Of a DNA stretch of 64,000 nt, positions 5,614-62,048 are shown piece after piece. The DNA lies in contig WBUR01000015.1 in the NCBI GenBank assembly GCA_008933615.1, forward strand, positions 1-64,000. The letters run 5' to 3'. The notes beneath the pieces are model-generated. The model saw nothing but the letters and a program-made list of their open reading frames with translations. It was not told where the DNA came from and did no database searches. The stretch is from a bacterium (lineage in GTDB: Bacteria; CLD3; SB21). Every line of letters begins with the position of its first letter. Position 1 is the stretch's first letter. Position numbers and translations under genes: made by a program.

Positions 5614-5649
5614 ATGCTGATTGTTCAATTATCATTTGACAATCAGCAT
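5614..5649 (-). other. Perfect 11-bp hairpin spanning the stop codon of the LRR gene
   Basis: atgctgattgt (5614-5624) and acaatcagcat (5639-5649) are exact inverted copies around a 14-base loop that contains the TGA stop at 5632-5634. The minus-strand transcript would fold here, but no U-run follows, so it is not a standard intrinsic terminator. It may protect the mRNA 3' end; this is inference. Confidence 0.45.
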
Positions 5650-9689: not shown

Positions 9690-12600
9690 TTATTCGACAA
9701 TAACCGTCAGATTGCTCGTGTTCCCAAAAATTTCCGGAGAGTACATTTCTTCTGCTTTGGTCGATGGCAGCTCAAATCGGCCGAATGTTGTTGCCCGTGC
9801 GAGATAAGTAAACGTGTGCTTACCCTGGGGCATCCAGTCTGCAAAAACCAATACCCGGTCGTCCCGCATTTCTGAATGATTAAAAGTACCATAAGACCAC
9901 CAGCCGCCACGGGAACCCGGTCCGGCAATCGCTTTTGCAGACGAATTGCTCGTTGCCAGGTTCACATTAACCGCTTCAAATCCCGCAGGAAGCGGGTCAT
10001 CAACCACAACAAATTGTCTATCCTGCGCAGAACTGACGTTCAATTCGATCCGGTACATTGCGCCGGCTGTGAACTTACCGTTTGTTACAGCCTTGCCCTT
10101 TTCATCAAAGAACGATTTCGTTATTTTCATTCCTTCATCGCGGGATTTGATCTTTATACCGGACTTTGGAGCATAAGTCATACGTACGTTATAATACAGT
10201 CGTCCCGTGCCTGAAAAATTAAAATCCATCGGCAGTGACACGTCCTTTTGCAGTTGATTAAATTTGATATTGGATGTGTGCGTTGCCGTTGAGCGGCCTT
10301 TGTAAATCTCACTGAGGATTTGTTTTCCGTCTATTTGTACTTGAGATTTGAAATCAGGGATTTCTTTCTCGAATATTCTGAAATAACTTCCCAGCGCCCA
10401 GAATACATATACATTTTCCTGCGTCGTTCTCCAGCGCCCGTCCTTTCGATCCTGTAGAAGATATTTTACTGTTTTTTCAGCCCACGGAACATCCTCCTTA
10501 TCCATCTCTAAAAATACTTGAAGAATCGCCGACGTAGTTCTAATATTCGAGTGAAACGTCCATTCAAGTCCGGTATTGAACGGCTCTTCAAAATGCGCCG
10601 TTGTCGGATTCATTTTAATTGCGTTTAATAAATTCCGCCGGAGTTCCTCTGCGATGGCTCTGTTTCCCTTTCCTTTGACGACGGCCTTCAACAACATCGC
10701 GCGCGCGTACAACGGCATTTCATCCCGCCGCTGGAACAAAAGTTCAACGCTTGAGGCATCGTAGTATCCGTTTTCAGCCAGGGTGGCCAGCGCGAATGCA
10801 TGGGTGGTGTGCCAATAAAATAATCCGTATCTGTCAATTGCAGCGGATTGCCTGACCATGCTTTTGAGATATTCCAATCCTTTGGCATAACATTCCTGAT
10901 TAACTTCAAAACCTTTCGCTTTGGCATGAGTGAGAGCAAACATCGTGTAGACAGAAACGTACGGAGAAACGTACTCACCGCCCGTCCAATAACTAAATCC
11001 GCCGCTGTACTGCTGAAATTTCGGAACGTCATCCAGATATTCTCGGATCACGTCATCGACGTTTTTTGCCTTATCCGGGAAAGCGTCCAATTTAAACGCT
11101 TCTACGACATCGCCAAATAAGATAATCGGGAGCGCGCGCGACGTTTTTTGCTCGAGACAGCCGTAAGGATATTCAAACAGGTATTTAATACTGCCGTCCA
11201 AATCCACCAGTGCTGTCGAAGCCGTCTTTACAGAAAGACCGCCAAAATCTTCGTATATATTCTTCGGGATCTTAATTTCTTCCTTATGGGTTTCGGTTGT
11301 ACTGCCATACAATGCAACGGTTTCAGTATACGTTGGAATTTTAAGAGGAATGGACACTTCAACGCCATCGGTCAGGTCATTCATGACGGCCTTAAATGTA
11401 AACTTGCCGGCCTTGTTGTCTCGAACATTAAATTTGTAGCGAACTTCCTGCGATGCGCCTCTATTCAAAAAAATATCCTTTGCCGGTAAATCTTTCAGCT
11501 CGACTCCATCCATTTCCGTAAATAATTTCACTGCCCCGTCTTTATCAGAATAATTATGAACGATCACTCCGGCCTCAACTTCGTCCCCTACTCTTGCAAA
11601 TCTCGGTAAAGCCGCGCGCATCATAAGTTCCTTGCTAACGGTGATATTCTTATCCGCGCTCCCAAACTTGGAATCCGCGGAATGAGCAACTGCGATGATC
11701 TTGAATCCGGTAACGTTTTCTGGCAATTGAAAACGAATTTTCGCCTTACCGTACGCATCGGTCATGATCGAAGGATTCCAATAAACACATGCTTTGAAAT
11801 TCTTACGCACGCTGACGGCGGCAAACATGTCGTCGCCCCCTCCGCCGCCTACACCGCCTTTGTCTTTCAGGCTGGCGTTCACGATCTGATCTAAAACATA
11901 TTTTCTGCTTTCGGATGTGGTCACGCCTAACTCACGGTGTTGATAAAAATAGGAGAATGGGTCGGGTGTTTTGTAATTCACAAGATTTAAAACGCCGATA
12001 TCCTCGACGTAAAGCGTTACTTCAGAAATTTTACCTTGTCCGCCATTATCTCTTATGTCAAGTTCAAGGTTAACCCATTCGTTGGGCGCAAATTTTTCCT
12101 TGTTCAATTTAAGGGCAACATTCAGTTTATTTGCATCGGAATTTATCGACAGTTTAGTGTAACCGATCTTAAACGCCGGTTTACCTAAATCTTCAAACTT
12201 ATCAGCCGTCGGAAGCGCCGTCCGGCCCTGTAAGAGGATTACAGATACGTAAGCGTTGGGGATCAAATCGGCAGTCACGGGTATTTCAATAAAACTAGCA
12301 TTGCCGTTGAGATCAACCGCTTTATGTGACAGTATCCCTTCACGTTCAACAGTAATCAGCGCCTTGCATTTTTCATACGGCGACTTCACCAGAATTTTTG
12401 CGGTTTCACCCGGATTATAACTTTTTTTGTCAGCCACTAAATCAATCGCATCGTCGTCGCGTAAATTCCATCCCGTGTATCCTTCTCCTGTCACATAGAC
12501 AAAACAGGATGATACAATCTTATTGCGAAGATCATCTGAACCGGTTGCCTTAATGATATAATAACCGGTTGATTGCGGACGTAAAGATTGCGAAATGGGC

Positions 12601-15365
12601 TGCGCGGCTGACACCGCCTCAAACGATGATTCAAGAGTATCTTTGACTTGTGAATTCCATTGAAACGTCCCTTCGCCAGTTTTTTCTCTGACGGAAATCC
12701 ACTCCCGGCGAATAAGTTCAAGCCGGACTAAATTTCCCCGTAGTTTCCTTCCTTTTGGATCCACCGTTATTAAGTCAACATGCAGCTTGTCACCCAGGGT
12801 ATGAAACGTCGTTGTTGGCTTCAGGCCGATGTAATATTTTCCTGCATGAACGGTAACGCTTTTCCTGCCGCTCACTTCCTGCCGGTTTTTGTCACGCACG
12901 TCGCCTTCGATAACCAGCGTGGACGATTCGCCGACGCTGTTGTTCAAACTTAATGATACGTCGAGTAAGCCCCGTTCATTTAATTGTTCGGTCTTACTGG
13001 ACAATACGGTAGCGTAACTTCCCCGGTAACCGTAATAGTCATCCGAAATCGCTCCAAAATAATAATCATCATAGCCATCCGGAACAAACGAACTCTTGCT
13101 GCGCGAAACGCTCCACTTAATCTCAGCATGGCTCATCGGAGCTCCGAATAAATAATGCGCGTCTAATGAAGCTTCCAGTTTTTCACCCCATACGTACTCG
13201 TCCTTTTTTGTTCGAATGGTAACTTCCGTTTCAACCGGCCTGAACTCTTGTACCTGAAAGCTTTCCGTCGATACTTCTTCTTTGCCGTCATACGCTTTCA
13301 CAGAATAATATCCCAACGGCGCGTTCACATCCAAATCATACTCAAAGTCAAAAGCGCCCATCGTATTCGTAGTACAATTTTTTGTAAAAATTTCTTCAGA
13401 TGAAGGGTTGACGACCGACACCGTCACACGCCGTCCGGAACTCACCGACCAGGAGTCCTGTTGTAATTTTCTGGTAATACCTTTGAAAAGAACTTTATCT
13501 CCGGGACGATACATGCCCTGATTTGTAAACAACGTCGCAGATAAACGGTCCGCATCGCTCACACGCCAGTTTGTGGGAATGTTAAATCGATAGAGTTCAA
13601 CGTTTTTATCAGAATTTATGTACGCCTTTTGCCCTGCCTTGGAAACAAAAACCCATTGCCTTGGCTCACTCCATTCATTTCTGGATCGTAACCCCAGGGC
13701 TTCCCATCCCGGCGTTTTGACAAACCCTTTTTCATCGGTGCGTCCCATCCACGCAATGTTTCCGGTATCATCACGAATTTCAACGGCTGCGCTCCCGACA
13801 GGCCTCCCGTCTTCCAAATAAGTCAGATAAACGAGATTATTTAGCCTGGAAAATTTAGCCGAAATTCCGATAGCCGTCACCTGCGCGATAGCCCGCTGTG
13901 CATAGGCTTCCGAACCGTGTTTAAATTCAATAAGTATGTTCCCGTTTCTTCCACCGCCCAACACTTCGTCAAGATCAACCGGGTAGATGCCTTGCTGATT
14001 CAATGGTACGTCGGGCTTCTCGGAGCGGGAACTTCCCCATTTATCAAAAATCAGGTCTCGTTTCCACAAACCCTGATTTAATACGCTGATCAGGTCATTC
14101 TCGGATAATAATGCAAGACGAACATTTACATATTTTGGATTCAATACCGGAACATTGAAACTATGACTCAAATAAGATTCGATGATGTGTTCGCCGCTTT
14201 GAAAAAATACGCCCGGCTCGTAATCCCCTGTTTCAAACTCGTGCACTATGTCAACGCCAAGATCGTTGCCAAAATCATCCGTTATATTTTTGTCAAAACG
14301 CATCTCGTAATGCGTCCGGGGTTTAAGATCTATATAAATGATTGTGGAATATTCTTCGTCCCAATAGGTGTCATACAGATATTTTATCTCAGCCTCCGGC
14401 GAAATAGTGATGTGATTACGCAGGGCTTCATAATCAACACGGTTTGTCAATTTTATTTTAACCGGCTGGCTTGGTGATACGGGTGAAGAGAAACGTACTA
14501 GTTCCAGCGTTCCGTACGTTGTAAATGAAATGGCTTTCGATTCCCTGCTGGCCAGGCTGCCAACTTCGCCTTTCAGACCTTCTTTTATAGTAATAGTATA
14601 CGGCGTAAGCATCGATAACTGGTCTAACGGTATGACAATCAATAATCTTTTTTCTAATTTTGCGATAGCGGAGTTAGCGTATTCGTAATTATAGTTCTGC
14701 ACATAGTCTTTGGCCTCATTCGAGTCCGCAAGGCGTACTACGCACTCCACCGCGCGGCCTGATAGTTCATTAGAAAGTGAAATTTTTTCTTTTGCGTTGG
14801 AAAGCAAAATATTCTGATTGAATAACAAATATATTTTAGGCGAGATGGTAACGCCCTTTGCGTCATCATAGATATTGGAGTGTAGGAATCTTGGCCTCAT
14901 CGTTTCAAATGAAAAATGATAAGGAGCGGACAAAAGACTGCCGGACAGCGACTTGGTTCCTGCCGGAATGGTAACTTGATAGCGGCTCGATAACGTGAGA
15001 ACGTCGGCAGGAGTAAAGACCAAAGTATTGGTACCCATCCATCGGTATTTACCCTTTAGAGCAGGCGTAATCGTGAGAGGTCCAGAGCCATCGCCTTCGG
15101 GCAAAGCCTCCAGCGGCACCATCGGTTGATTGAACACGACAACAACAGAATAAAATTGATCAACATCCTCGATCAATCCCTGCGGAGTCGCCGAAAGGAC
15201 AGTCAACCCCTGCTCGGACGGTGCGATGGGAGCTTGTGCGTGCGACGGGTCGCTGAAACTGCACCCGCTAAAGTAGAAAAGAAAAACCGAAGGCAACAGA
15301 AAAAATATAGAGCCAACAAAATAAAGGGTGATAGATTTTTGCGGTAATAATCTTTTAATCATCAC
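9690..15365 (-). CDS. Alpha-2-macroglobulin-like lipoprotein with CLEQ thioester motif
   Basis: A very large (1891-residue) bacterial macroglobulin. These proteins trap attacking proteases in the periplasm by a thioester bond. The N-terminus carries a lipoprotein signal (lipobox FSGC near residue 35). Stacked MG beta domains follow, with MG motifs such as GMYRPGDKVLFKGI. A Gly-rich, bait-like stretch (GGVGGGGGDD) lies near residue 1180, then NVTGFKIIAVAHS. The thioester site is PYGCLEQ with Cys at about 1403 and Gln at 1406, inside an alpha-helical toroid domain. C-terminal receptor-type beta domains complete it. In proteobacteria this gene often sits beside pbpC; here it lies between aspS and moaD with no penicillin-binding protein. 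Confidence 0.9.
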   Translation of the reverse strand: MMIKRLLPQKSITLYFVGSIFFLLPSVFLFYFSGCSFSDPSHAQAPIAPSEQGLTVLSATPQGLIEDVDQFYSVVVVFNQPMVPLEALPEGDGSGPLTITPALKGKYRWMGTNTLVFTPADVLTLSSRYQVTIPAGTKSLSGSLLSAPYHFSFETMRPRFLHSNIYDDAKGVTISPKIYLLFNQNILLSNAKEKISLSNELSGRAVECVVRLADSNEAKDYVQNYNYEYANSAIAKLEKRLLIVIPLDQLSMLTPYTITIKEGLKGEVGSLASRESKAISFTTYGTLELVRFSSPVSPSQPVKIKLTNRVDYEALRNHITISPEAEIKYLYDTYWDEEYSTIIYIDLKPRTHYEMRFDKNITDDFGNDLGVDIVHEFETGDYEPGVFFQSGEHIIESYLSHSFNVPVLNPKYVNVRLALLSENDLISVLNQGLWKRDLIFDKWGSSRSEKPDVPLNQQGIYPVDLDEVLGGGRNGNILIEFKHGSEAYAQRAIAQVTAIGISAKFSRLNNLVYLTYLEDGRPVGSAAVEIRDDTGNIAWMGRTDEKGFVKTPGWEALGLRSRNEWSEPRQWVFVSKAGQKAYINSDKNVELYRFNIPTNWRVSDADRLSATLFTNQGMYRPGDKVLFKGITRKLQQDSWSVSSGRRVTVSVVNPSSEEIFTKNCTTNTMGAFDFEYDLDVNAPLGYYSVKAYDGKEEVSTESFQVQEFRPVETEVTIRTKKDEYVWGEKLEASLDAHYLFGAPMSHAEIKWSVSRSKSSFVPDGYDDYYFGAISDDYYGYRGSYATVLSSKTEQLNERGLLDVSLSLNNSVGESSTLVIEGDVRDKNRQEVSGRKSVTVHAGKYYIGLKPTTTFHTLGDKLHVDLITVDPKGRKLRGNLVRLELIRREWISVREKTGEGTFQWNSQVKDTLESSFEAVSAAQPISQSLRPQSTGYYIIKATGSDDLRNKIVSSCFVYVTGEGYTGWNLRDDDAIDLVADKKSYNPGETAKILVKSPYEKCKALITVEREGILSHKAVDLNGNASFIEIPVTADLIPNAYVSVILLQGRTALPTADKFEDLGKPAFKIGYTKLSINSDANKLNVALKLNKEKFAPNEWVNLELDIRDNGGQGKISEVTLYVEDIGVLNLVNYKTPDPFSYFYQHRELGVTTSESRKYVLDQIVNASLKDKGGVGGGGGDDMFAAVSVRKNFKACVYWNPSIMTDAYGKAKIRFQLPENVTGFKIIAVAHSADSKFGSADKNITVSKELMMRAALPRFARVGDEVEAGVIVHNYSDKDGAVKLFTEMDGVELKDLPAKDIFLNRGASQEVRYKFNVRDNKAGKFTFKAVMNDLTDGVEVSIPLKIPTYTETVALYGSTTETHKEEIKIPKNIYEDFGGLSVKTASTALVDLDGSIKYLFEYPYGCLEQKTSRALPIILFGDVVEAFKLDAFPDKAKNVDDVIREYLDDVPKFQQYSGGFSYWTGGEYVSPYVSVYTMFALTHAKAKGFEVNQECYAKGLEYLKSMVRQSAAIDRYGLFYWHTTHAFALATLAENGYYDASSVELLFQRRDEMPLYARAMLLKAVVKGKGNRAIAEELRRNLLNAIKMNPTTAHFEEPFNTGLEWTFHSNIRTTSAILQVFLEMDKEDVPWAEKTVKYLLQDRKDGRWRTTQENVYVFWALGSYFRIFEKEIPDFKSQVQIDGKQILSEIYKGRSTATHTSNIKFNQLQKDVSLPMDFNFSGTGRLYYNVRMTYAPKSGIKIKSRDEGMKITKSFFDEKGKAVTNGKFTAGAMYRIELNVSSAQDRQFVVVDDPLPAGFEAVNVNLATSNSSAKAIAGPGSRGGWWSYGTFNHSEMRDDRVLVFADWMPQGKHTFTYLARATTFGRFELPSTKAEEMYSPEIFGNTSNLTVIVE

Positions 15366-17294: not shown

Positions 17295-17330
17295 TAAAAA
17301 AACCGTACGCCTCAGGCGTACGGTTTTAAG
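17295..17330 (-). terminator. Strong rho-independent terminator ending the ExbB/ExbD operon
   Basis: A 12-bp perfect stem (17300-17311 with 17315-17326, core ccgtacgcc/ggcgtacgg) around a three-base loop lies about 28 bases past the stop of the AgmX-domain gene. On the minus strand a run of T follows (tttttttatatt). It is the clearest terminator in the window and marks the end of the seven-gene operon. Confidence 0.9.
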
Positions 17331-17353: not shown

Positions 17354-18409
17354 TTACTTCGTAAACACAAAGGTCTGGTTGATCGTTATCACGCCTTTTT
17401 TGCCTTTTGGAAAACTCCATCCGCGAATCTTATTGGTAACGCAAGATGATACTGCATTACCGACCGTGTTTTGGGTAACATTTACACCTGCAACACGTCC
17501 TGCCTGATTCACTTTGATTGCAACGCTTAACTTACCTTTAAGATCCGGAGATTTCTTCAATTCTTTTTGGTAGCATGAGTTCACCGCAGCTGCATTCGCA
17601 TCAATTACGGACTGAATTTCGCCCGCAGAAGCTCCGGCTCCCGCACCGCCGGCAATAGACGCTTTACCGACGCCGATAAGGCCGCCGCCCGATTCTCCGG
17701 CCGACACAGACAAGCCTCCCGGATCGCCCAATAATGCGGTAAGATCACCAAGTCCGCCCTCACCGCCAACGCCGCCGCCGGCGCCTAAAACTGTTCGATC
17801 ACTGCCGCCGCCGCCGGCTTCACCCAGACCGCCAATCTGTCCTAAAACATCATCTAAACCGCTGGAAGAACCGCTAAAATCAACTGAAGCATATTTTCCC
17901 GAAGAACCGGTTCCCGATGCTCCCGCAACGGCTAGAACGCCTTTGCCTGCCGCTTTCCCTGCCGCTTTCCCTGCGCGAGCCGCTGCAGCTGCCTTTGCCG
18001 CCGCCGCACGTCCTGCTTTACCAACGTTACCCGTCGGAGCTTTTATAGCTGTTGCCGGCCCTGTTGCGGTGCTTGTTTCTGTTTTTTCTTCTTCTTTGGG
18101 TTTATCAATTTCTTCGAGAAGTTTCGGATCAATCTTATTGATAACGCCGATTTTCTTTAAGAGCCTGTCCGAAATGACCGTGCTCACCGGAGGCTTGGGT
18201 TGCGCAGCCATGTAAAGCAGTGGCGTATACACAATCACCAAAGAAGCAAACCAGATCACTAGTATCTTCTTATCGAAAGACGCCCAATAATTCTTATGGA
18301 ACTCTTTCGGGAAAGAAACAATCCTGATCTCCCGCGCGCCCGCAGAGGCTCTGCCTCCCGGAGGCGCAGCGCTGGCGTGTAAATTCTTATTGTTCTCTAA
18401 CGGATTCAT
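17354..18409 (-). CDS. TonB-like energy transducer with AgmX/PglI C-terminal domain
   Basis: A 351-residue inner-membrane protein with a strong AAGGAGG site. About 48 cytoplasmic residues precede one membrane helix (ILVIWFASLVIVYTPLLYM). A long periplasmic linker rich in Ala, Lys and Gly follows (about residues 120-240, including AAAAKAAAAARAGKAAGKAA). The C-terminal 95 residues match the AgmX/PglI domain of Myxococcus gliding proteins: NSCYQKELKKSPDLKGKL, an SSC motif and GWSFPKG. This is a TonB-type architecture, so the protein probably couples the ExbB/ExbD motor encoded just upstream to an outer-membrane target. It is the last gene of the operon. The target is unknown. Confidence 0.85.
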   Translation of the reverse strand: MNPLENNKNLHASAAPPGGRASAGAREIRIVSFPKEFHKNYWASFDKKILVIWFASLVIVYTPLLYMAAQPKPPVSTVISDRLLKKIGVINKIDPKLLEEIDKPKEEEKTETSTATGPATAIKAPTGNVGKAGRAAAAKAAAAARAGKAAGKAAGKGVLAVAGASGTGSSGKYASVDFSGSSSGLDDVLGQIGGLGEAGGGGSDRTVLGAGGGVGGEGGLGDLTALLGDPGGLSVSAGESGGGLIGVGKASIAGGAGAGASAGEIQSVIDANAAAVNSCYQKELKKSPDLKGKLSVAIKVNQAGRVAGVNVTQNTVGNAVSSCVTNKIRGWSFPKGKKGVITINQTFVFTK

Positions 18410-18483
18410 TGAAACCTCCTTAAAAGATCATACGTCCGTATAATCTGACACTATTTCATCTCTTCGTTTCGATATTAAAATCA

Positions 18484-18996
18484 TCAAATCCCGAGCACAT
18501 CCGCTTTATTGGACAAATTGCCCAAGAGCCGTAGATTAGCAAAACCGTTGCGTCCGCACGTGATGATCACTTTAAGTAAGACATTGAAAGGCAACCTTTC
18601 ATCGCCAACGATAACTAACTCGCGCTTGAATTCGATGCCGAATTTAGACTCCAATTCAATGGCCCTAGACGCTTCTTCGTCCAATTTATCAGCCAATTCC
18701 TGTATAACGAAACTGTTTTTCTGTGCAATGATCTTATCCACATCTACGATAGCATCTTTCTTAAAAAAAAGATGCTGAGTTGAGACGTTGATCGCTAAGA
18801 CTTTTTTCGGTTTCTGTTTTGTCAAAACCTTCGGAGGTTTTAGTCCGTCGGATTTGGTCGCCAGCGAACCTTCGGTACTGAAACTCATAAGCAAAAAGAG
18901 CAACATAATGGTAAGAATGTCCATCATGGAATTCATATTAAGAGTTCCTTCTGTACTTCCTCTGTTTTTCTTGGCCGCTGATGGTTTGAATGCCAT
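18484..18996 (-). CDS. ExbD/TolR-family protein 2, with the proton-carrying Asp
   Basis: A 170-residue member of the ExbD/TolR family, which forms the rotating core of ExbB/TolQ proton channels. A short cytoplasmic tail (MAFKPSAAKK) is followed by one membrane helix (MMDILTIMLLFLLMSF) and a periplasmic domain. Asp26 is at the position of the essential Asp25 of E. coli ExbD, so this copy looks competent to carry protons. It shares the unusual MAFKPS start with the ExbD-like gene directly upstream, which suggests a tandem duplication. Spacing is 23 bases upstream and 74 bases downstream within the operon. Confidence 0.88.
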   Translation of the reverse strand: MAFKPSAAKKNRGSTEGTLNMNSMMDILTIMLLFLLMSFSTEGSLATKSDGLKPPKVLTKQKPKKVLAINVSTQHLFFKKDAIVDVDKIIAQKNSFVIQELADKLDEEASRAIELESKFGIEFKRELVIVGDERLPFNVLLKVIITCGRNGFANLRLLGNLSNKADVLGI

Positions 18997-19019
18997 TGTT
19001 TTTTTCCTTTTCTAAAAAA

Positions 19020-19598
19020 TTATAACACGATCTTACCAACGCCGATATTGATAAACCACGGCTGTTTGACAATCTTTTTAGTATCCGGATCTTGCAGTTC
19101 TTTTACTGCCGAGGCGCCAATAATATCCATTGTGGTAACAATGGTTTGGTATTCAATAACGTCTTCGGCTGTAATAATGATCACGCGCTCGTCTTCAAAA
19201 CCCTTGCCGCCGATCGCTTTTACTGCGTCTTTTAGTTTCTGATCCAGACCTTCAAAATCATAATTCCCGTCGGACAACTTCGGCAGCGTAGGCCCGCCGC
19301 CTGCTGCGCCGCTCAATACAACCGTGTTACCGGCTATCGTAAACCCCTTCTCCGTGATAACGAGTTTCAATCCTACTTTTCGGGGTTCTTCTTTGGGTTT
19401 ATCTTGTTTATCTTCCGAGCTTGATGAAGATCCACCTCCAACGGGTGGCAGATTCAATTCAAGCCAACTGTTCTTTACAAATTGCGAACAACTGAGAAGC
19501 AAGGGAATCAAAATACACATCATGTTCATGATAGGGCGCAGATCAAGCTCCGTGCTTTCAACTTTTATACTTCTTCGCGCAGATGGTTTAAATGCCAT
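19020..19598 (-). CDS. ExbD/TolR-family protein 1, with Asn replacing the key Asp
   Basis: A 192-residue ExbD/TolR-like protein. It starts MAFKPSARRS and has one membrane helix (PIMNMMCILIPLLLSC), an acidic/serine-rich linker (SSSSSEDKQDKPKEEP) and a periplasmic domain. Aligning the helix with ExbD puts Asn25 (codon AAC) where the family has the proton-binding Asp. The helix also carries Cys and Pro, unlike the neighbouring copy. It therefore probably cannot carry protons itself and may pair with ExbD2 in one stator. It lies between the ExbB-like gene and ExbD2 with short spacers. Family membership rests on topology, position and the D-to-N alignment. Confidence 0.82.
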   Translation of the reverse strand: MAFKPSARRSIKVESTELDLRPIMNMMCILIPLLLSCSQFVKNSWLELNLPPVGGGSSSSSEDKQDKPKEEPRKVGLKLVITEKGFTIAGNTVVLSGAAGGGPTLPKLSDGNYDFEGLDQKLKDAVKAIGGKGFEDERVIIITAEDVIEYQTIVTTMDIIGASAVKELQDPDTKKIVKQPWFINIGVGKIVL

Positions 19599-19685
19599 AT
19601 ATTCACCTTTATCTTTTGATCAGCTTCTTTAATTCATACTTATGTGGAAATCAAAACAATAATCACTTACGAAAAACTATGAAAA

Positions 19686-20480
19686 TTATCTGTTTCCGGT
19701 CATTAAGTTGATCAGTTTTACCATATGCTCATCCATCTCATCAATGATCTTGGTGGTCTTTGTAGTGATGATCGTATAGGCAATAATACAAGGAATAGCA
19801 ACAGATAGACCCCAAATAGTGGTCTGCATAGCTGCCGAGATACCGCCTGCGAGTAACAATGCTTTTTGATCTTCAGGGAGTGAGGGATTAGCAACTGCGG
19901 CGAATGAAATAATAAGACCGTACACCGTACCCATCAGACCAAAGAGCGTCGAGACGTTACTAAGCATGGCAATATAACCGGAACGTTCAGTTAACTTGGG
20001 AATTATTTCCAGCGTACCTTCGTCAACGGCATTCTGAATGGCGCGGAAATCAAGAGGCCCGCCTTCTTTTTCAACTGCTCTCTTCAAACCGGCTAAAACA
20101 ACCGATGGCAGCGCTTTATCTTTTGCTGTTTCACAAAGAGCAATGGCTTTTTTCAAATTACCGCCGGCAACCAGCTTGCGAATTTCTGCCATAAATTTGT
20201 TAGCATCTACATTGGAACGAACAAATATAAAATAAAGTCGTTCGGATATCATTGCAACAGCAAAAACGGCGCAAAAGGCAATAATCCACATATAGGAGCT
20301 TGCATCTTCAGACCATTTAAAACTCTGGAAAAATTTCTGAAAGAAAATTGCTGTTCCTGATGCTTGGGCCTCGCCCGCTGCCGGTTCCTGTGCAAACAGA
20401 GCGTTGGTCGAAAATAACATGGTTACATTCATCAGCACGACCAGTGCCAAACCCATAACTTTTTCAATACTCTTTTTCAT
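19686..20480 (-). CDS. MotA/TolQ/ExbB-family proton channel protein
   Basis: A 264-residue inner-membrane protein forming the channel ring around the ExbD/TolR helices. An N-terminal hydrophobic, signal-like segment (about residues 8-30) is followed by three membrane helices: SYMWIIAFCAVFAVAMI, a second in LFGLMGTVYGLIISF and a third in TTIWGLSVAIPCIIAY. The last two carry the conserved threonines that face the proton path in ExbB/TolQ. The cytoplasmic loop (about 90-160) has the usual ALPSVVLAGLKRA helix. A GGAGG ribosome site precedes the start. A 219-base AT-rich leader separates it from the small secreted-protein gene upstream, so it may have an internal promoter. Confidence 0.92.
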   Translation of the reverse strand: MKKSIEKVMGLALVVLMNVTMLFSTNALFAQEPAAGEAQASGTAIFFQKFFQSFKWSEDASSYMWIIAFCAVFAVAMISERLYFIFVRSNVDANKFMAEIRKLVAGGNLKKAIALCETAKDKALPSVVLAGLKRAVEKEGGPLDFRAIQNAVDEGTLEIIPKLTERSGYIAMLSNVSTLFGLMGTVYGLIISFAAVANPSLPEDQKALLLAGGISAAMQTTIWGLSVAIPCIIAYTIITTKTTKIIDEMDEHMVKLINLMTGNR

Positions 20481-20616
20481 GAAACAAACCTCCTGTTAAG
20501 TTCATTGAATGAATTTATTTGATATTATTCTAACTATAATAATCTTGCGAACTGTTTATGTCGGAATCTGTTACTTCCGATATGCAGGCTTGAATGAAGT
20601 GAAAATTAACGCAATT

Positions 20617-20644
20617 AATATACATACTATTTATTTAAATGCAA
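20617..20644 (-). promoter_or_regulatory. Possible internal promoter before the ExbB-like gene
   Basis: On the minus strand TTGCAT (20639-20644) and TATATT (20617-20622) are 16 bases apart in the AT-rich 219-base gap. The -10 matches five of six consensus bases but the -35 only three. It could allow the motor genes to be expressed apart from the large TPR genes upstream. This is a weak call by eye. Confidence 0.3.
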
Positions 20645-20699
20645 GTTTTTTTATTGGTTCAGATCAAGAGCCTATTCAAACTAACCGGAAAAGGCGACT

Positions 20700-21185
20700 T
20701 TAATTGCGCCGTTTTTTGATGAGCTTGTCGATCTCTTTCAAATCCACGTTATCTATGTTCAAAAACTCAGCTTTGTCAATGAATACCATGTCGAGGTACC
20801 GCCGTTTTATTTCCTTATCATACGATTTCTGGCCTACAACTTTTTCGATTTCCGGCCCGACGCGGCGGTTAAATAAGGAAACGCCGGGGCCTTCCACTTT
20901 ACCTTTAACGGTGGACTTAGTAAAAAAGCTTATCTGTTCACCGGTAGGCTTATAATAAACCACGATGACGGTCTTGTCCCCAGCTTGTTCTTCTTTTACC
21001 GTATATAATTTCGGATCAGGAGGATTGCCTGTTGCAATGACGATCACCACTTGTTCACCAGTTTCGTCTTCCACGACATCCATGTCCGGATGTTTGACTT
21101 CCTGCGCAAAAGATTGCGCTGACATGGCCAATCCCGTCAGAAGCAATCCAATGAATCCGGCACATGTTAGTTTAAATATTTTCAT
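20700..21185 (-). CDS. Small secreted protein of unknown function in the ExbB/ExbD operon
   Basis: A 161-residue exported protein with a signal peptide ending in a QSFAQ-type cleavage site and an AAAGGAG ribosome site. The mature part is small and charged: an acidic N-terminal stretch (HPDMDVVEDETGE), a beta-rich middle (QVVIVIATGNPPDPKLY, TVIVVYYKPTGEQ) and a helical basic C-terminus ending LIKKRRN. I recognise no known family. It lies 13 bases after the giant TPR gene and before the ExbB-like gene, so it is probably a periplasmic component of the same machine. Confidence 0.7.
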   Translation of the reverse strand: MKIFKLTCAGFIGLLLTGLAMSAQSFAQEVKHPDMDVVEDETGEQVVIVIATGNPPDPKLYTVKEEQAGDKTVIVVYYKPTGEQISFFTKSTVKGKVEGPGVSLFNRRVGPEIEKVVGQKSYDKEIKRRYLDMVFIDKAEFLNIDNVDLKEIDKLIKKRRN

Positions 21186-21198
21186 ACTATCACTCCTT

Positions 21199-24100
21199 TT
21201 ATCTGCTTCGAACCACGCGTGAGCGGCGGATTAACAACTCTCTGAGTTGGTCGTTCGGCGGCAGCGGCGGATCGGCAAATTGCGCTGTAATATCTTCAAC
21301 TTCGTTCACTTCCAAAAACAAACGTATACCGTAATGTTCTTTGGGAGTTTCTAAATCTTTTGATACAATAGCCAGAATATTAGTGCCCTGAACAAAGTTT
21401 TCCTGCAAGAGATAATGCAGATCAAGTGAATCGCCTTTCACATCCGGGTTTTCCTGTTGTTGCGATCCGATTAAGACGCCGTTGAGATAAAAGTCATATT
21501 CGCCGTCCGCTGCAATGTACATTTTTCCTTCTTGCGGGTTGCCTGCTATATTGAATGACTTACGGAAATAAACAATTTTTGCCGTATCAAGTTGCCGCTT
21601 AATCATGTCCTGTGTATATACCGGCTTGACAGACGTGTCCTGCAGAACCCATGTGTCTACGATTAAGCGTGTACCGCGGATGTACGATTGGGTTTCATTG
21701 GAATCGACAGCCGCCGCTGTGTCTGTGGTAACAGGCGCTATTCCGGCTGAATCTGCCAAGGTTTCGGTTATCATAGTGTCTTCCGGTACTATGATGCTCG
21801 GAGGTACGTATTTCGGCAATGGAGGCTTTACTACCGACTGGCCCAATCCTATCCACAGAGGATAAGCAAAATTGGTATCTAGAATTGCGTGCGCTGCAAT
21901 TTCTGTATTGGGCGGCGGTGCGGCATTGTACCAGCCAAGATCGCTGTATGCCGGGGTCTGCCAGGATTCGAAAAATTTATTATTCGACAGCCAGTCATCA
22001 TAATTAGAGGCATAAGTGCGGGTTAAAGATTTCAATTGCAATAATTTCGCATAATACTGATCGTATTTACCTAACAACGATAATATTCTCTTAGTGCCCT
22101 GATCATTGGTGACCGCAATATTATCGCCTTCAAGGCCGTTTGGATCTTGTTTCAGTTTAACCAGTTCCAGTGTCGTAGCTGAATTGAATGCCTCTTCTAA
22201 AAGGCTGCGCGCATTTTCCCTGGCGAAACTGAGAACCTGACTGTACGTTGCGCTGGCTTCACTGTAATACAAGAATGCTTCATCGGACTGATTTTTGAAA
22301 TATTCCGCTTCATACCCTTTATAGTATTTATCCGCCGTATCCGCTTCCTGATAGTTGAGTCTGGCGAACTGATATGCAAATTCGAACATTTCTCTCTGAA
22401 TCTGGCGAGCATCCTCGTCAAAAAGATTTTTTTCTTTCGCCTGTTTGACAGCTGAAGCGTAGGTCTTAATGGCTTGTTCGGCAATTGGTTTCGCAAACTG
22501 GGAAATGAACGTATTCATATCCAATGGAATTTCATAGAAAATCGTATAGAAATCTTTTCCAGTTTTCTTATCAATGTAGTTTTCCCCGCCGGCCACGACC
22601 TCGCGATAATGATCTGAGTTCTGCGTATAAAGCTGCATGGTGATAAACGAAAGTTTAGCCAATTCACCAGGTACGATGCCGGTAAAACGCACGATATTTC
22701 GACGGCATTCGCTGGTGTACTTGTCGCTGATTCCCAGCGAGTCCATTTCTCTGACAGCGGTTTCAAATGCAAGGATCGCATCGTTGACCGCCGGGAAAAC
22801 CGCTTTAACCAGAATCTGCTGCTGATAACTTATGTAATCCAGCGTGCCGGGCAGAATTTCTTTCGGCAGAGGCGCGCTCAAATAGGTATCTAAAATTAAT
22901 TTCTTCGAGTTAGCTACCGCATACAGAATTCTTGATATTTTGGATCGCGCCAGATCGCGGTATTGCACAGCTAACTGCTGTTGGCGGTACAGAGAAAATT
23001 CCTTTTCTTTAGCCGTTTTTCCTTCCCACGTCCATTTGAAAACCATCTGTGCAGAATCGGCGCTGTTTGGATACAATGCGTTAATTGAGTCACGAAGTTC
23101 TTTTTCGTCTGCGGCAAATTTTTCATACGCTTTATCTAAGAAAGCATACGCGTTCTTATATTCTTCAACCGCGCCGCGATAAGCGCCGGATGCCACGGAA
23201 TACGCATCTTTCTGAGCCTGGATATACTTGACCAGATCTTTTTCCTGCTGAAATTGTTTGGTGGCCAAAGCGTCGCCGACTTCTTCGCGGACTAAACCGC
23301 GATAGTAGGTGGCCTCATAAGTACGAATCTGCGCATAACTCGTCACCGCCTCATATAACGTCATGAGTTCTTTGACAATCGAGATTTTCATTTCTTCTTT
23401 GTGTTCTACGCCGGGTTCCTTCAAGTGAATTTTTGCAAAGTCCTCATAACGCATCCGGGCCAATTCATACGCAGCTTCCGAAGAGAAATATTTATTAAAA
23501 TCCAGATTGATCTTTTTCAGATCGTCACTTTTCTTTAGGGCGTCTCTGAATGCTGAGGTGGCTTCCGTACGACGATTTTTACGGAGATGGTTCATACCCA
23601 CGTCGTAAAGCGATTGGACATTTCGTTTGTCATTGGGAAAAGTGGCGGCAAACTGACGGTATTTTTGGTAGGCTCGTTCTTCATCGCCAATCAAAAAGTA
23701 TAGGTTCGCAACGCCAAAATCCATGGTGGAAGCATATTCTGATTTTGGATACCGTTTGACAAATTTTTCGCTGATACGGATTGCCTCGGTATTCATGGCT
23801 TTTCCTTCTGTCGAATCCCCTTGCGCGTTCGCACGTTTGGCAGCCTGTTCCACATAATATTCCGCATTATATAAGGCAATCTCAGCCGTCACGGCGCCTT
23901 TATTTACGGAGTAATTCGGATAGGTGTCCGCCAACCGTTCCGCTGTCTTTGCAGCAGACTTCATCTCTTTTAAATCGGCGTAGGTTGCCTGTACGTTCCA
24001 TAACGCGTTCGGCGCATCCTTCAGGTCAGGAAATGAATCGGCATACATTTCATAGGCGCTAATTGAGCGTTTTAGTTCCTTTGAATTATTATATTCAATA

Positions 24101-26433
24101 CCCGATTTAAAAAGGGATAAAGCCCGGTCGTCTCGTTTTGAATAACCGATGCGAGTACCTTCCTCATAAGCACGCTGGAATTCCCGCGCAGCTTTGGCGG
24201 GCTCTTTGTTGGTTTGGAAATCTTCGCCGCGTTTATAGATCGAATAGAAAATAACGTTTGTTGCTTGTTCCTTTTGCTCCTTACTCGAAACCGTGCTTTC
24301 CAGCAGCCGCTTTGCAACAATTTCCGAACTGCGGTAATCCTTACGGTCATAATACGTCTGCATCAGGTACTGCTGCGAGATCTGCGCCTTATCGCTGTTC
24401 GGATACCGTGTAACAATCGTATTAAAATATTGTCCTGATCTGCCGAAATTATTGTGATTATAATAGATCTGCCCGGCATAGGCCAGAAAATCCGGCGTCT
24501 TCTTCCCGGGAACACCCATAACGGGTTTTAGATTTTGAAGTGAGTCAACCGGATATTGAGTAACGGTATCGGAAAAAATACGGGCATAGCTGTTGATGGC
24601 ATCGATCAGATTCTCCTCCCCGGATGACAGAGGAATGATGCTGTCGGCCGGCGCATTCACCGGCTTTTTGTATGGCGCCTTGCGGTACAATGAATCTGCA
24701 ATAGTATAGGCCGTCATCGCCGCGTTATACCGATATAAATCCTGCGGATATAGCGTGGCAACTTTGACGTAATCTTCATAAGCGGAATCCAACAGACCAA
24801 AAAACCGGTACTGAATGAAGGCAAGATTATAATGGAAAAAATATGCATTGGTATCCACAGGAAAATATTTGATGAATTCGCGGCTGAAATCCATCGCAAT
24901 TTTCCAGTCACCGAGATCATTCGACGCTTGAGCCTCGCCATAAAAATAGTAGATATTTTCGACCAAGACGTCGCGCGCCATTCGATTACCTTTTGCGACA
25001 ATCTCTTTGTCCTCTTGAGCTTTCGACCAATCGGAATTGGGCTTATACGCGTTATATAATTTGTATCGATTCTCCAATACGCTGTCTAACAGTGTTTTAG
25101 CGATGGCCTTGTCGGTAACCGCGCGGGACAACCGGTCATACGTGGAAACAATTTTGTATTGGGCATCCGGCGCTCTCCAAAACTGCGGGTAATTCTGGAC
25201 CAGGCTCTTATAGGCATATAAAGCCAAAGTATCCTTCTGTTCCAGATTATAAGACTCGCCTAATTGCCACATAATTTCAGGCGCATACCGTTTTTCATTT
25301 AATTTAGCTTCGTCGATGTACGACTTGATCAACCTGTAGCCGCCTTCATTGGTTCCTTGCGCCAAATCGATTTGTTCCGCCCAACGGTTAAAACTAATCC
25401 CGATATATACCAAAGCTTCGACATCCAATTCTTGTGTCTCATTATTATAATACTTGGCCGAATCAACATCGTCTATCAAATAGGTAAAATAGCTGATGGC
25501 CTGAGGATAGTTTCCCAGGCGATAGTGCGTCCATGCCAATTTATATACCGCTTCCGGAAATCGTTCTGCCGTCGGATAGTCCATAACTTTACTGTAATTC
25601 TTGATCGCTCTCTCAAGATCGGCGTCGCCGCCTCTGAGGAAATAGAATTCAGCAATACGATTATACGCTTCCGGCGCATATTTGCTATCCGGAAAACGAA
25701 TGGCTAAATCCTGATAAATTTTTAAAGCTTCTCGCAGTTTCTTCTCTGACTCTTGTTTCCACCGTGTTTCCTGTTCAGGAAATGTCAAAGCGCGGCTTCG
25801 TAACTGATTGCCTTCCTGTTCGCGAATATACGCTATATTATACATGGCATCGACAACATACTGGCTCTCGGGATAACTTTCTATCAGCTTCTGATACGTT
25901 TTTGAAACGTCGGAGTAATCCATTTCCGGTTCAGGAAACTGGTTGGGCGGTTCAATACCGTCAAGCAACTCTTCAAGTTCCTTATCTTTCTTGCCTTGCG
26001 CAATCCATTGCTGACGTTTTTCTTCCCTCATGCGATCCCATTCACCAAGCCGCTTGGCATTCTCAGTGGAAATAGAATCGACTATGGTTTGGAAATTGTC
26101 GTTCAATGAATATAATAAATACTCGGCGCGCTGTAAAAGAACCAATGCGGTTGACGTAGAACTTACACTAACTTTTTCAAGATATTCTTTACTTTGTTTG
26201 AGGCCTTTATCCAATAACTGCAGTCTCTCCGTTTCCAGTTTTGATTTTTGTCCTTCGATATCTTCCTTCAGTTTCAATAAATCTTCACTGGAAACATTTT
26301 CCAGGGCTAAAGAATCATAATGCTTTGTCACATGGTCCTGAGCCAAGAGAAAACCTCCGGACACAACGCCCATCGTGAATACGCTCAGAAAAAGAACGGT
26401 AGTATGTAACACTTTTTTCATAAAATATCCCAT
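21199..26433 (-). CDS. Giant periplasmic TPR protein with C-terminal jelly-roll-like domain
   Basis: A 1744-residue exported protein. The start ATG overlaps the TAA of the gene upstream (TAATG); a second ATG four codons on (MKKVLH) also has GGGA upstream. After a signal peptide, most of the protein is TPR repeats of the BamD/YbgF style (YPESQYVVDAMYNIAYIREQ, FPDSKYAPEAYNRIAEFYF), with a coiled-coil-like helical part in the middle. The last 150 residues differ: VYFRKSFNIAG, ADGEYDFYLNGVLIG and QGTNILAIVSKD resemble the galactose-binding/jelly-roll folds of glycoside hydrolases. It may bind peptidoglycan or another polysaccharide while scaffolding the ExbB/ExbD complex. The jelly-roll call is by pattern. 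Confidence 0.78.
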   Translation of the reverse strand: MGYFMKKVLHTTVLFLSVFTMGVVSGGFLLAQDHVTKHYDSLALENVSSEDLLKLKEDIEGQKSKLETERLQLLDKGLKQSKEYLEKVSVSSTSTALVLLQRAEYLLYSLNDNFQTIVDSISTENAKRLGEWDRMREEKRQQWIAQGKKDKELEELLDGIEPPNQFPEPEMDYSDVSKTYQKLIESYPESQYVVDAMYNIAYIREQEGNQLRSRALTFPEQETRWKQESEKKLREALKIYQDLAIRFPDSKYAPEAYNRIAEFYFLRGGDADLERAIKNYSKVMDYPTAERFPEAVYKLAWTHYRLGNYPQAISYFTYLIDDVDSAKYYNNETQELDVEALVYIGISFNRWAEQIDLAQGTNEGGYRLIKSYIDEAKLNEKRYAPEIMWQLGESYNLEQKDTLALYAYKSLVQNYPQFWRAPDAQYKIVSTYDRLSRAVTDKAIAKTLLDSVLENRYKLYNAYKPNSDWSKAQEDKEIVAKGNRMARDVLVENIYYFYGEAQASNDLGDWKIAMDFSREFIKYFPVDTNAYFFHYNLAFIQYRFFGLLDSAYEDYVKVATLYPQDLYRYNAAMTAYTIADSLYRKAPYKKPVNAPADSIIPLSSGEENLIDAINSYARIFSDTVTQYPVDSLQNLKPVMGVPGKKTPDFLAYAGQIYYNHNNFGRSGQYFNTIVTRYPNSDKAQISQQYLMQTYYDRKDYRSSEIVAKRLLESTVSSKEQKEQATNVIFYSIYKRGEDFQTNKEPAKAAREFQRAYEEGTRIGYSKRDDRALSLFKSGIEYNNSKELKRSISAYEMYADSFPDLKDAPNALWNVQATYADLKEMKSAAKTAERLADTYPNYSVNKGAVTAEIALYNAEYYVEQAAKRANAQGDSTEGKAMNTEAIRISEKFVKRYPKSEYASTMDFGVANLYFLIGDEERAYQKYRQFAATFPNDKRNVQSLYDVGMNHLRKNRRTEATSAFRDALKKSDDLKKINLDFNKYFSSEAAYELARMRYEDFAKIHLKEPGVEHKEEMKISIVKELMTLYEAVTSYAQIRTYEATYYRGLVREEVGDALATKQFQQEKDLVKYIQAQKDAYSVASGAYRGAVEEYKNAYAFLDKAYEKFAADEKELRDSINALYPNSADSAQMVFKWTWEGKTAKEKEFSLYRQQQLAVQYRDLARSKISRILYAVANSKKLILDTYLSAPLPKEILPGTLDYISYQQQILVKAVFPAVNDAILAFETAVREMDSLGISDKYTSECRRNIVRFTGIVPGELAKLSFITMQLYTQNSDHYREVVAGGENYIDKKTGKDFYTIFYEIPLDMNTFISQFAKPIAEQAIKTYASAVKQAKEKNLFDEDARQIQREMFEFAYQFARLNYQEADTADKYYKGYEAEYFKNQSDEAFLYYSEASATYSQVLSFARENARSLLEEAFNSATTLELVKLKQDPNGLEGDNIAVTNDQGTKRILSLLGKYDQYYAKLLQLKSLTRTYASNYDDWLSNNKFFESWQTPAYSDLGWYNAAPPPNTEIAAHAILDTNFAYPLWIGLGQSVVKPPLPKYVPPSIIVPEDTMITETLADSAGIAPVTTDTAAAVDSNETQSYIRGTRLIVDTWVLQDTSVKPVYTQDMIKRQLDTAKIVYFRKSFNIAGNPQEGKMYIAADGEYDFYLNGVLIGSQQQENPDVKGDSLDLHYLLQENFVQGTNILAIVSKDLETPKEHYGIRLFLEVNEVEDITAQFADPPLPPNDQLRELLIRRSRVVRSR

Positions 26434-29264
26434 TATGATTCTATTAAGCTGCTCTGATTGCGTGTTAGATAAGAAGAGTTAAAGTCTGTCATACCGTTTA
26501 TCCAATATACTACGGCATACAAATTTTCAAACGTGGACTGAACCCGGAATTGCGAAAATTCTCCTTCGTCGTTCTGTCCACCCCCGCCGTTATTTGACGT
26601 GCTGTCCGCCTCTATTTTTTCACTCGGCATTTCATTATTCATTTCATCTGTACCGCTCTTAACGGCCGTGTCGATTGCTGCCGGCTCTTCCGTCGATTCT
26701 TCCTCCTCTTGAGGAATATTGACCGGCTCCGCAGGTAAAGTGTCCTGAGGAATTACGACCACTTCAGGAACAAGGTCATTATAATCAAACGGATCAATTT
26801 CCGGTTTTTCTGAAGCTTTAGCCTGGAAATATTCTTTCTCAAAGAATTGTTTTTGAGAAACCCGCATTTCCTGCATTTCTTTATCCCTGATTTCCTGTTC
26901 CTTCAGCTTAATTTCTTCTTCGATTGCCGCAATACGGCTCTCGTAATTCTTTTTTCGTGTTAACAGAATCTTGTCGATCTGAGACGCGGCGCGGGCCAGA
27001 TCTTTAATCGTTTCATTCTTAGTTGTATTGATTACGTATGTTATGTTGTTACGCCCGTAACTGGCAAAATCACCCCATACGTCCAGATCGACGTAATTTT
27101 CAATCGGATCTTCCGTATAGAGCAACACTTCATAATCACTTAACCGGTAATAGAGATCGGCTAATTTTTTTCTTTCATATTGCAGCTTGATCAGCGAAGA
27201 TTCTTTATTCTTTTCTTTGGCGGTCACCATCATATTATCTACCGTGATCAATTGATTTTGAATGAGTTCTTTTTCACGGGAAATTTTATCTTTCAGCGCG
27301 TTCAGCGACTTGTTTCTTGCGTCAATCTCACTGAGGGAGCGCGGGACTTTGTGTAATGAGAAATAACTTTGCGTTTCCACATCGGCATACGTGTCGGTAG
27401 TAGCGCCGCTAACGGAGTCCTTGCTTGATACGTACACCTGATCCAAAAACTTTTCGCCGCCGATCGCTTGGAATTCATTCAAATAGCCTGATAATTCTTT
27501 GTTCAGTTTATTAATTTCTTTTTGGTCTTTTGTTTCTTCGGCGTTCTTCAGTTGCCCTTCGGCAACTCTGATCTTACTGATTAGATTTGACATGGTTTGA
27601 TAATAGCCCGCGGAACGCGTATCAGTGGTAATGGCTTTCATAAAGCCGTTATTCGTTGTCGCCTTCGCCAGTTTATCATATAGGCGGTCGTAATTCACAA
27701 AAGCCAGACTGTCATTTCGAAGACGGGCAATCGTTCGCGCTTCGCCCAACTGGCCCAGAACTTTAAACGACGAATCACGTTCCGAAACAAACTGATCCGC
27801 TAGATATTTAGCTTCCGTTGCTCCGGCAACATAATTAAAAGCGTCCACGGCCAATAACTCGCGATCTTTATCCGACAAGGTGGGGTCCAAAACCTGAATA
27901 TTGCCAAGCAATGTTTTTGCTTCGTAATAATAATCCGATGCCGGATAGGTGCGTAATAATGAGTCCACAAAAACACGCGCGGTATCGATATCGTTATCTT
28001 TTAAGGCTGACCAGGATAAAACAAGCAAAGCGGCATCGTGGACATTCGACGCAGCAGGAATATTTTTCACATACGGATAGACTGCCTTGAGTTTTTGTCC
28101 GTTCGTAGTTAATTCAAATTTGATAAATGCAATTTTCAGCTTCGCAATGTCCTTCAGTTGTTTCTGCAGTTCAACACTGAAACCCCGGTTATTCGCCTCC
28201 AGCTTGACGACCGCTTCAAATTGTTCCAGCGCCTCAGGATACGTTTCCAAATTGGCATAGGCATGACCCATAACATACTTAGCCGGATAATAATACCGGG
28301 ACGTATTCGGGATTTTTTTCAGAATGGCAATAGACGCCGAATAATCGGATGTTTTGAAGAGCGTGAGACCGGCCAGATAAAAGGGCTGATTATAACGCAG
28401 ATCATTCTTATTGTTGGGCGTAACTTTTGACTCAAATTCTGCAAAATATTTTTGCATCCGGTTCCGGTCTGTCTGGATATAATTCATCACAACAAGATTA
28501 AAAAGGCATCTTTCGACAAACGGTGAAGACGGATAATCAGTCACGACTTTATAATAATTTTCCTCCGCATTGCCGAAATCTTTCATGCGGAAATAACTCT
28601 CGGCCAGATAAAATGTAATATCATCCAGTTCCGTAAAATAAGTCTTATAGGTAGTGAGGATGTCCTGAAATTCTATAGCGGCAACCGTATAACTGGCTTC
28701 TTTAAATCGTTTAAACGCTTGTTGTAATTGCCTCTCAAACAATGTTCTGACCTGGTCGTTTTCGCCGGATTTTAGAAGATGGTTACGAACCCCCAAAGCT
28801 TCGGCACGGGTAAGTTCATAGTCCATTCCGTACAATCTTTGGTACTCCATATGGAGTTCGTTAAGCCCCGACTGATTGGTATAACCCGGCATGAGATAGT
28901 TCTTTTTCTTCATCAGATCTAAATTATCCCGTATCGTTTTCAATCTCACACGTATGGAATCCTTCGACATGGGGAGTATAATTTTGGACTCGGATGAAGC
29001 CCTCAGTGCTTTTTTATCTTTACGGAATTTGAATTCACCGCGAATACTTGATATCAGGTCGAGCAAAATAACTTCATTATCGAGATAACGGTATGCAAAA
29101 CTCTCATCAAGACTTTGAATGTACTGACTGACGCTTGTACGGTATTCTTTGCGAATTTCTTTATCCGATTTCTGCGCGAACGTATTAGCTGTGAAAATAT
29201 GTCCCAACCCGATCAACATCGACATTGCGAAGATCCAATGGACGGGGTTTTTCGTTTTTTGCAT
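26433..29264 (-). CDS. Large periplasmic TPR protein, first gene of the ExbB/ExbD operon
   Basis: A 943-residue exported protein. The chosen start (MQKTKNPVHW) has a GAGG site six bases upstream and opens a clean signal peptide; a start 14 codons earlier lacks this. TPR repeats fill about residues 180-560 (for example FYLAESYFRMKDFGNAEENY and KYVMGHAYANLETYPEALEQF). Helical, coiled-coil-like sequence follows up to about 830 (KLKEQEIRDKEMQEMRV). A disordered Pro/Glu/Ser-rich stretch and a short conserved-looking tail (LYAVVYWINGM) complete the protein. It is coupled to the next gene by a one-base stop/start overlap, so the two TPR proteins are probably made in similar amounts and act together. 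No enzyme motif is visible. Confidence 0.78.
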   Translation of the reverse strand: MQKTKNPVHWIFAMSMLIGLGHIFTANTFAQKSDKEIRKEYRTSVSQYIQSLDESFAYRYLDNEVILLDLISSIRGEFKFRKDKKALRASSESKIILPMSKDSIRVRLKTIRDNLDLMKKKNYLMPGYTNQSGLNELHMEYQRLYGMDYELTRAEALGVRNHLLKSGENDQVRTLFERQLQQAFKRFKEASYTVAAIEFQDILTTYKTYFTELDDITFYLAESYFRMKDFGNAEENYYKVVTDYPSSPFVERCLFNLVVMNYIQTDRNRMQKYFAEFESKVTPNNKNDLRYNQPFYLAGLTLFKTSDYSASIAILKKIPNTSRYYYPAKYVMGHAYANLETYPEALEQFEAVVKLEANNRGFSVELQKQLKDIAKLKIAFIKFELTTNGQKLKAVYPYVKNIPAASNVHDAALLVLSWSALKDNDIDTARVFVDSLLRTYPASDYYYEAKTLLGNIQVLDPTLSDKDRELLAVDAFNYVAGATEAKYLADQFVSERDSSFKVLGQLGEARTIARLRNDSLAFVNYDRLYDKLAKATTNNGFMKAITTDTRSAGYYQTMSNLISKIRVAEGQLKNAEETKDQKEINKLNKELSGYLNEFQAIGGEKFLDQVYVSSKDSVSGATTDTYADVETQSYFSLHKVPRSLSEIDARNKSLNALKDKISREKELIQNQLITVDNMMVTAKEKNKESSLIKLQYERKKLADLYYRLSDYEVLLYTEDPIENYVDLDVWGDFASYGRNNITYVINTTKNETIKDLARAASQIDKILLTRKKNYESRIAAIEEEIKLKEQEIRDKEMQEMRVSQKQFFEKEYFQAKASEKPEIDPFDYNDLVPEVVVIPQDTLPAEPVNIPQEEEESTEEPAAIDTAVKSGTDEMNNEMPSEKIEADSTSNNGGGGQNDEGEFSQFRVQSTFENLYAVVYWINGMTDFNSSYLTRNQSSLIES

Positions 29265-29379: not shown

Positions 29380-29408
29380 AATTTAGTTTTTTTTAAATAT
29401 GAAGTCAA
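29380..29408 (-). promoter_or_regulatory. Sigma-70-like promoter of the TPR-ExbB-ExbD operon
   Basis: On the minus strand TTGACT (29403-29408) and TAAATT (29380-29385) are exactly 17 bases apart, matching five and four of six consensus bases. It lies about 115 bases before the chosen start of the first operon gene, in an AT-rich stretch. No other strong promoter-like pair was noticed in this gap. Confidence 0.5.
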
Positions 29409-62001: not shown

Positions 62002-62048
62002 ACGGATATATTCTCCATTTACCTTTATGAATACTATTTAAAATAACC

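Follow-up and report, generated by a model that had tools for sequence, protein, structure and literature searches.

What kind of machine is built from one proton-channel ring protein, two unlike axle proteins and two giant tetratricopeptide repeat (TPR) proteins? This question is raised by a seven-gene operon on the minus strand of contig WBUR01000015.1 (GenBank assembly GCA_008933615.1), of which we analyzed positions 1 to 64,000, hereafter the window. The operon encodes the TPR proteins TPR1 and TPR2, a small secreted protein, an ExbB/TolQ-type protein, two ExbD/TolR-type proteins (ExbD-a and ExbD-b) and a TonB-like AgmX/PglI protein (PglI). Judged from its sequence, we give a probability of about 60% to the reading that it encodes a force machine spanning the envelope, of the ExbBD/TolQR/AglRQS class and working by the mechanism proposed below. 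Far from being a one-off, the operon represents a trans-envelope motor that is widespread and has its closest parallel in the Agl-Glt "core complex". Its most unusual feature, which the original prediction had missed, is that ExbD-a is devoid of the aspartate (Asp) expected to carry protons.

The aspartate site of the two ExbD proteins

ExbD and TolR possess a single Asp in their membrane helix that is absolutely required for activity, and current motor models assume that protons are passed between the dimer's two Asp, with 36-degree steps (PMC12905483). At this proton-carrying site, the window shows Asp26 in ExbD-b versus Asn25 in ExbD-a. We asked how general this difference is. Of 102 relatives, 86 have Asn at this site of ExbD-a, 14 have Gly, and one each has Ala and Asp, while ExbD-b has Asp in 101 out of 101 (one genome, loci L118 and L164, is counted twice in this census). 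Misalignment was rejected as the source of the Asn, as Asn25 aligns with the Asp of the solved ExbD and TolR structures, within Pro-x-x-Asp, and its flanking residues are invariant. As a control, the Asp was found to be retained in 17 of 18 other ExbDs from the same genome and eight related genomes. Two further Asn/Asp pairs of ExbDs, in Fibrobacteria and Raymondbacteria genomes, were traced to additional copies of this type of locus.

Using parsimony on a tree of concatenated ExbB and ExbD-b, we found Asn on either side of the root, at least two origins of Gly, and the single Asp nested. Most simply, therefore, Asn would be the ancestral state of ExbD-a and the single Asp, in L116, a return. 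Considering the census, the control ExbDs and the tree together, the loss of Asp in ExbD-a is, as far as these sequences tell, old and one-sided.

Some individual loci are worth noting. L116 (4673-5275) encodes the sole Asp-bearing ExbD-a of the set, nested among Asn sequences. The additional operon or motor paralogs of Raymondbacteria and Fibrobacteria (L197, L198, L200 and L201, in genomes G009 and G010) combine Asn in one ExbD with Asp in the other, and another TPR-ExbB-ExbD-ExbD locus (L202, 9789-10662, genome G016) has Gly at the Asp site of one ExbD.

A second peculiarity concerns the ring. Raymondbacteria and deep Fibrobacterota have two ExbB copies, the second of which continues into ExbD-a in a single frame, with about 60 residues between the end of the ring helix and the axle helix. 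A sequencing frame error is unlikely to be behind this fusion, considering that stop-free frames of 425-446 codons recur in many genomes. By eye, this second ExbB copy has conserved ring residues, so that it looks like a working ring subunit. If the protein stays uncut, the fused axle chain would be unable to turn endlessly in the ring. In the open-access literature found, there is no mention of natural one-Asp ExbD pairs or an Asp-less ExbD partner, nor of a ring-axle (ExbB-ExbD) fusion, which is not proof of novelty.

One tentative reading, which we hold less likely than not, is a motor whose axle can only form as a heterodimer and has one proton-carrying Asp, and whose Asp-less axle chain is covalently joined to a ring subunit in some lineages, which would make endless rotation impossible there; such a motor would work by single-site strokes of limited angle. 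On the other hand, ExbD-a might stand outside the axle and have another job, such as anchoring, next to an ExbD-b homodimer with two Asp, in which case there would be no one-Asp motor. In keeping with this alternative, AglQ and AglS are not known to pair either. We nevertheless consider an ExbD-a outside the axle somewhat doubtful, because ExbD-a retains the axle helix and the ExbD fold, both strictly conserved, and because it is linked to the ring by the fusion seen in Raymondbacteria and Fibrobacterota.

Operon layout and conservation

Open reading frames (ORFs), Pfam and NCBIfam agree on a seven-gene operon on one strand, as had been predicted (Table 1). Domains were assigned with the two family collections, which gave MotA_ExbB (E 1.1e-20), ExbD in two proteins (E 1.7e-11 and 4.6e-13), TPR_6 in both TPR1 and TPR2, and the AgmX/PglI C-terminal domain NF033768 in PglI (81 bits, cut-off 40). 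The strong terminator predicted after PglI was recovered. Most junctions are short or overlapping, as the original prediction had it, except for a gap of 219 nt between the small protein and ExbB, whose start is preceded by an AGGAGG ribosome site. The ATG taken earlier as the TPR1 start yields a clear signal peptide. The promoter-like site announced upstream does exist, but it is not evidence of a promoter, because such sites are no commoner in the window than chance predicts (31 found versus 27.7 expected) and it does no better than shuffled sequence.

Table 1. Features of the operon and its flanks, in window coordinates.
Feature	Position	Strand	Basis or remark
TPR1, large secreted TPR protein	26433..29264	minus	ORF extends to GTG 29306; TPR matches
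TPR2, giant secreted TPR protein, 1744 aa	21199..26433	minus	ORF; TPR matches
TPR2 C-terminal beta-sandwich	21292..21579	minus	Structure model and Foldseek; present across phyla
Small secreted protein, possible GltF/CglF counterpart	20700..21185	minus	Short conserved strand-like motif; weak CglF matches of relatives
ExbB/TolQ-type proton-channel ring subunit	19686..20480	minus	Signal-like N-terminal extension; MotA_ExbB
ExbD-a, first axle subunit	19020..19598	minus	Asn25 (19524-19526) at proton-carrying Asp site
ExbD-b, second axle subunit	18484..18996	minus	Asp26 (18919-18921) retained
PglI: single membrane helix, Ala/Gly-rich linker, TonB-like AgmX/PglI tail (17363-17623)	17354..18409	minus	
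Intrinsic terminator between PglI and aspS	17299..17327	minus	13-pair stem and T run
Promoter-like site, not above chance	29380..29408	minus	TTGACT-17-TAAATT, 9/12

We also asked whether relatives keep these genes together or scatter them. Nine genomes sample the phylum of the window, which is a small one. Five same-family loci besides the window have the identical order as far as their contigs reach (L026 and L028 end early), with aspS adjoining PglI, and two genomes of the other family of the phylum have the same seven genes without aspS. A census based on a single scan of named genomes, using an alignment of ExbB and counting only recognized genes, returned 80 loci, nearly all from Calditrichota, KSB1, LCP-89, Zixibacteria, Raymondbacteria and Fibrobacteria. 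The order ExbB-ExbDa-ExbDb-PglI was found in 72 of these loci, TPR1-TPR2 in 59, with TPR1 counterparts heading the operon, and the complete set, including the two TPR genes, in 54; departures from the order are mostly contig ends or the fusion lineages. The whole order, from TPR, TPR and small secreted protein to ExbB, ExbD, ExbD and AgmX/PglI, recurs in the window's own phylum, Calditrichota, KSB1, LCP-89 and Zixibacteria. These counts favor one conserved unit, and a local oddity of a single metagenome-assembled genome is rejected by the spread over several phyla.

The operon usually lies beside aspS (PglI and aspS are paired in 52 of the 80 loci) and often behind atpD-atpC. In L073, and to judge from gene sizes also in many further Calditrichota loci, atpD and atpC stand ahead of it, while genes for a LysM protein, phoH, a thiolase, nusB and a phosphoesterase follow downstream of aspS. 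Its neighbors thus form a housekeeping setting, and this placement together with the conservation of the operon points to a core, not an accessory, envelope duty.

A possible mechanism

The PglI tail aligns with TonB C-terminal domains, and together with the NF033768 match this bears out the TonB-like AgmX/PglI protein of the original prediction; the match to the TonB model TIGR01352 reaches only 14.9 bits, and that to the GltG model is partial (85 of 650 bits).

The small protein is poorly conserved except for the motif IEGxxxxPxVxIxxxRxxPxFxxIxLxRSF. Small proteins of the operon mostly had no match in NCBIfam, and only weak matches to CglF, which is GltF in Myxococcus, recurred: three relatives from different phyla gave matches collinear with the model (E 0.0019, 0.056 and 0.085), and the window protein gave none. 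In Myxococcus, gltF adjoins gltG (PMC3169522). At L066 (9326-9967), a true TonB C-terminal domain (E 2.6e-18) is fused to the small protein of the operon. From these sequences the small protein is likely the contact of the PglI tail.

As for TPR2, its C-terminal beta-sandwich was modeled with a pLDDT of about 80-94 over most strands, and Foldseek gave 6i60 as the best match (E 2.7e-5), resembling sugar-binding domains found in alpha-rhamnosidase and GH2 enzymes. This domain ends TPR2 in most of the lineages looked at, across phyla, and by its modeled fold it is possibly a sugar-binding-like domain.

Combining these elements, we propose that an ExbB pentamer surrounds one ExbD-a and one ExbD-b, with protons crossing only via the Asp of ExbD-b and ExbD-a forming the structural half of the axle. 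The energized motor would then move PglI, whose TonB-like tail would span the wall and grip a short strand of the small protein, in the role of a TonB box. This grip would pull on a scaffold of TPR proteins located at the outer membrane or beneath it, and the scaffold would hold surface or outer-membrane complexes, possibly via the sugar-binding-like end of TPR2.

Several observations weigh against parts of this scheme. The window PglI does not have the Ser-His motor-binding motif of TonB and TolA; the full SHLS motif was present in none of the PglI proteins tested, and Ser-x3-His is kept in many KSB1 PglI proteins. The TonB-box role assigned to the small protein would follow from resemblance only, the predicted fold of the L066 fusion is of low confidence (pLDDT 56, pTM 0.26) and cannot show strand pairing, and Fibrobacter has no small ORF at the position of the small protein. 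Moreover, in deep Fibrobacterota the TPR genes are located elsewhere and not adjacent to the motor genes.

Known systems and alternative roles

Among published gene sets, the one that comes closest is the "Group B core complex" (Luciano et al., 2011), in which GltC/D/E/G and AglRQS are encoded in one cluster in gammaproteobacteria, Geobacter and Fibrobacter succinogenes (PMC3169522). The likeness lies in the clustering of one ExbB-like, two ExbD-like, TPR and PglI/GltG-type genes, and clustering at a single locus holds outside Myxococcales. The original prediction of a proton-driven type of motor with glideosome-like parts thus fits the gene content. In contrast, AglQ and AglS are both described with Asp, whereas ExbD-a has Asn, Gly or Ala in 101 of 102 sequences, and GltG has an FHA domain, for which the Pfam scan gave no match in the window operon. 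The identity of the window TPR proteins with GltE, GltC or GltD could not be shown. The window machine works like the Agl-Glt core and is probably related to it, and we do not file it as a member because it differs from that complex in the Asp of its ExbD pair and in the FHA domain. PVC-group loci (PMC12204202) are similar in combining TPR genes with a tolQ-like and two unlike tolR-like genes, but there the transducer is a vWA protein instead of one with an AgmX/PglI tail. A GldL search of the window's own genome gave no match, while its control was also silent everywhere.

A Fibrobacter counterpart could be compared directly. The Fibrobacter operon has the order OmpA, TPR, TPR, ExbB, ExbD, ExbD, PglI, with masses in one genome of 55.9, 83.8, 146.5, 23.0, 32.3, 18.2 and 32.5 kDa. 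In F. succinogenes S85 the values are 55.97 (FSU_2396), 83.84 (FSU_2397), 146.67 (FSU_2398), 23.06 (FSU_2400), 32.44 (FSU_2401), 18.24 (FSU_2402) and 32.45 kDa (FSU_2403) (PMC6851124, PMC4619616). Because all seven molecular weights match, FSU_2396-2403 is almost certainly the counterpart of the operon, an identity that rests on gene order and these weights. The order TPR, TPR, ExbB, ExbD, ExbD, TonB-like and the homologous products are shared with the window, while Fibrobacter differs in the OmpA gene in front, in having no obvious small protein and in its ExbD-a, which has Gly instead of Asn and a longer periplasmic part. The FSU_2396-2403 proteins are more abundant on cellulose (PMC6851124, PMC4619616), and cellulases were accompanied by FSU_2396 and FSU_2397 in a complex of outer-membrane vesicles (PMC6851124). 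In Fibrobacter, the machine appears to be put to use in cellulose contact. The arrangement was accordingly known before, from the 2011 core complex and from cellulose proteomics; on the operon in Calditrichota and KSB1, nothing on point was present in the open-access literature found. What appears new is the Asp-less ExbD-a and the ring-axle fusion, the type of gene set being already known.

We infer a cellular role for the machine as an outer-membrane scaffold or in adhesion, integrity or motility, and known systems suggest several such roles. By maintenance of the Tol-Pal kind, the outer membrane would be kept attached or constricted in growth and division, with the TPR proteins replacing CpoB, TolB and Pal. 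In NCBIfam, ExbB is best named TolQ and the TPR proteins score best against YbgF/CpoB, which agrees with such a role, as do the core genomic neighbors and the fact that no complete Tol-Pal operon was seen in a search that was not exhaustive. We still judge it unlikely, because the operon is without TolB and Pal (and TolA), OmpA-domain proteins are encoded elsewhere in the genome (3 OmpA domains) and the F. succinogenes counterpart is induced on cellulose. A whole-genome test for TolB with PD40 repeats returned 54 unspecific matches.

A Ton system for sugar uptake, as proposed on proteomic grounds for the cellodextrins of F. succinogenes by authors who read the motor as a Ton importer and did not find its receptor (PMC6851124), would account for ExbB, ExbD and the TonB-like PglI tail, and the genome does have TonB receptors (14 plug domains). 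The operon, however, has no receptor gene, as had been predicted, and the receptors could instead depend on two other ExbB loci, which include TonB-like genes. Two differing ExbDs, one of them Asp-less, two giant TPR partners and a PglI without full SHLS are foreign to Ton, and we regard this role as very improbable. The operon is in this sense neither a plain Ton nor a plain Tol system, in agreement with the original prediction. A gliding or surface-adhesion motor like Agl-Glt, suggested by the nearest gene set, by the partial GltG match of PglI and by the CglF/GltF-like small protein, is improbable as well, considering that F. succinogenes has not been shown to be motile (PMC3079729) and that, according to the 2011 study, the core complex is also present in non-gliding bacteria (PMC3169522); gliding, which had been raised for this operon, is thus not supported.

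Other genes of the window were also noted. An alpha-2-macroglobulin-like bacterial protein of 1891 aa (9690-15365), encoded directly behind aspS, is also found in same-family relatives. Of two surface-type proteins, one combines LRR, Ig and fn3 domains with a type IX secretion tail (5632-8679) and the other FG-GAP with laminin-G (125-3172), and two adjacent hybrid sensor kinases with Y_Y_Y domains, one of them with a Reg_prop propeller, occupy 58552-63947.

It is unsettled whether motors of the ExbBD/TolQR type truly rotate and whether both Asp are needed. In the operon described here, many phyla have long kept a motor in which only one of the two chains bears Asp, and in about 20 genomes the Asp-less chain is tied to the ring. 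The rotation model can be put to the test on this one-Asp axle and on the fusion, both ready-made cases, which is the most valuable part of this study. Moreover, Calditrichota, KSB1 and Fibrobacterota share an envelope machine whose role is testable in Fibrobacter, a key cellulose degrader of the rumen.

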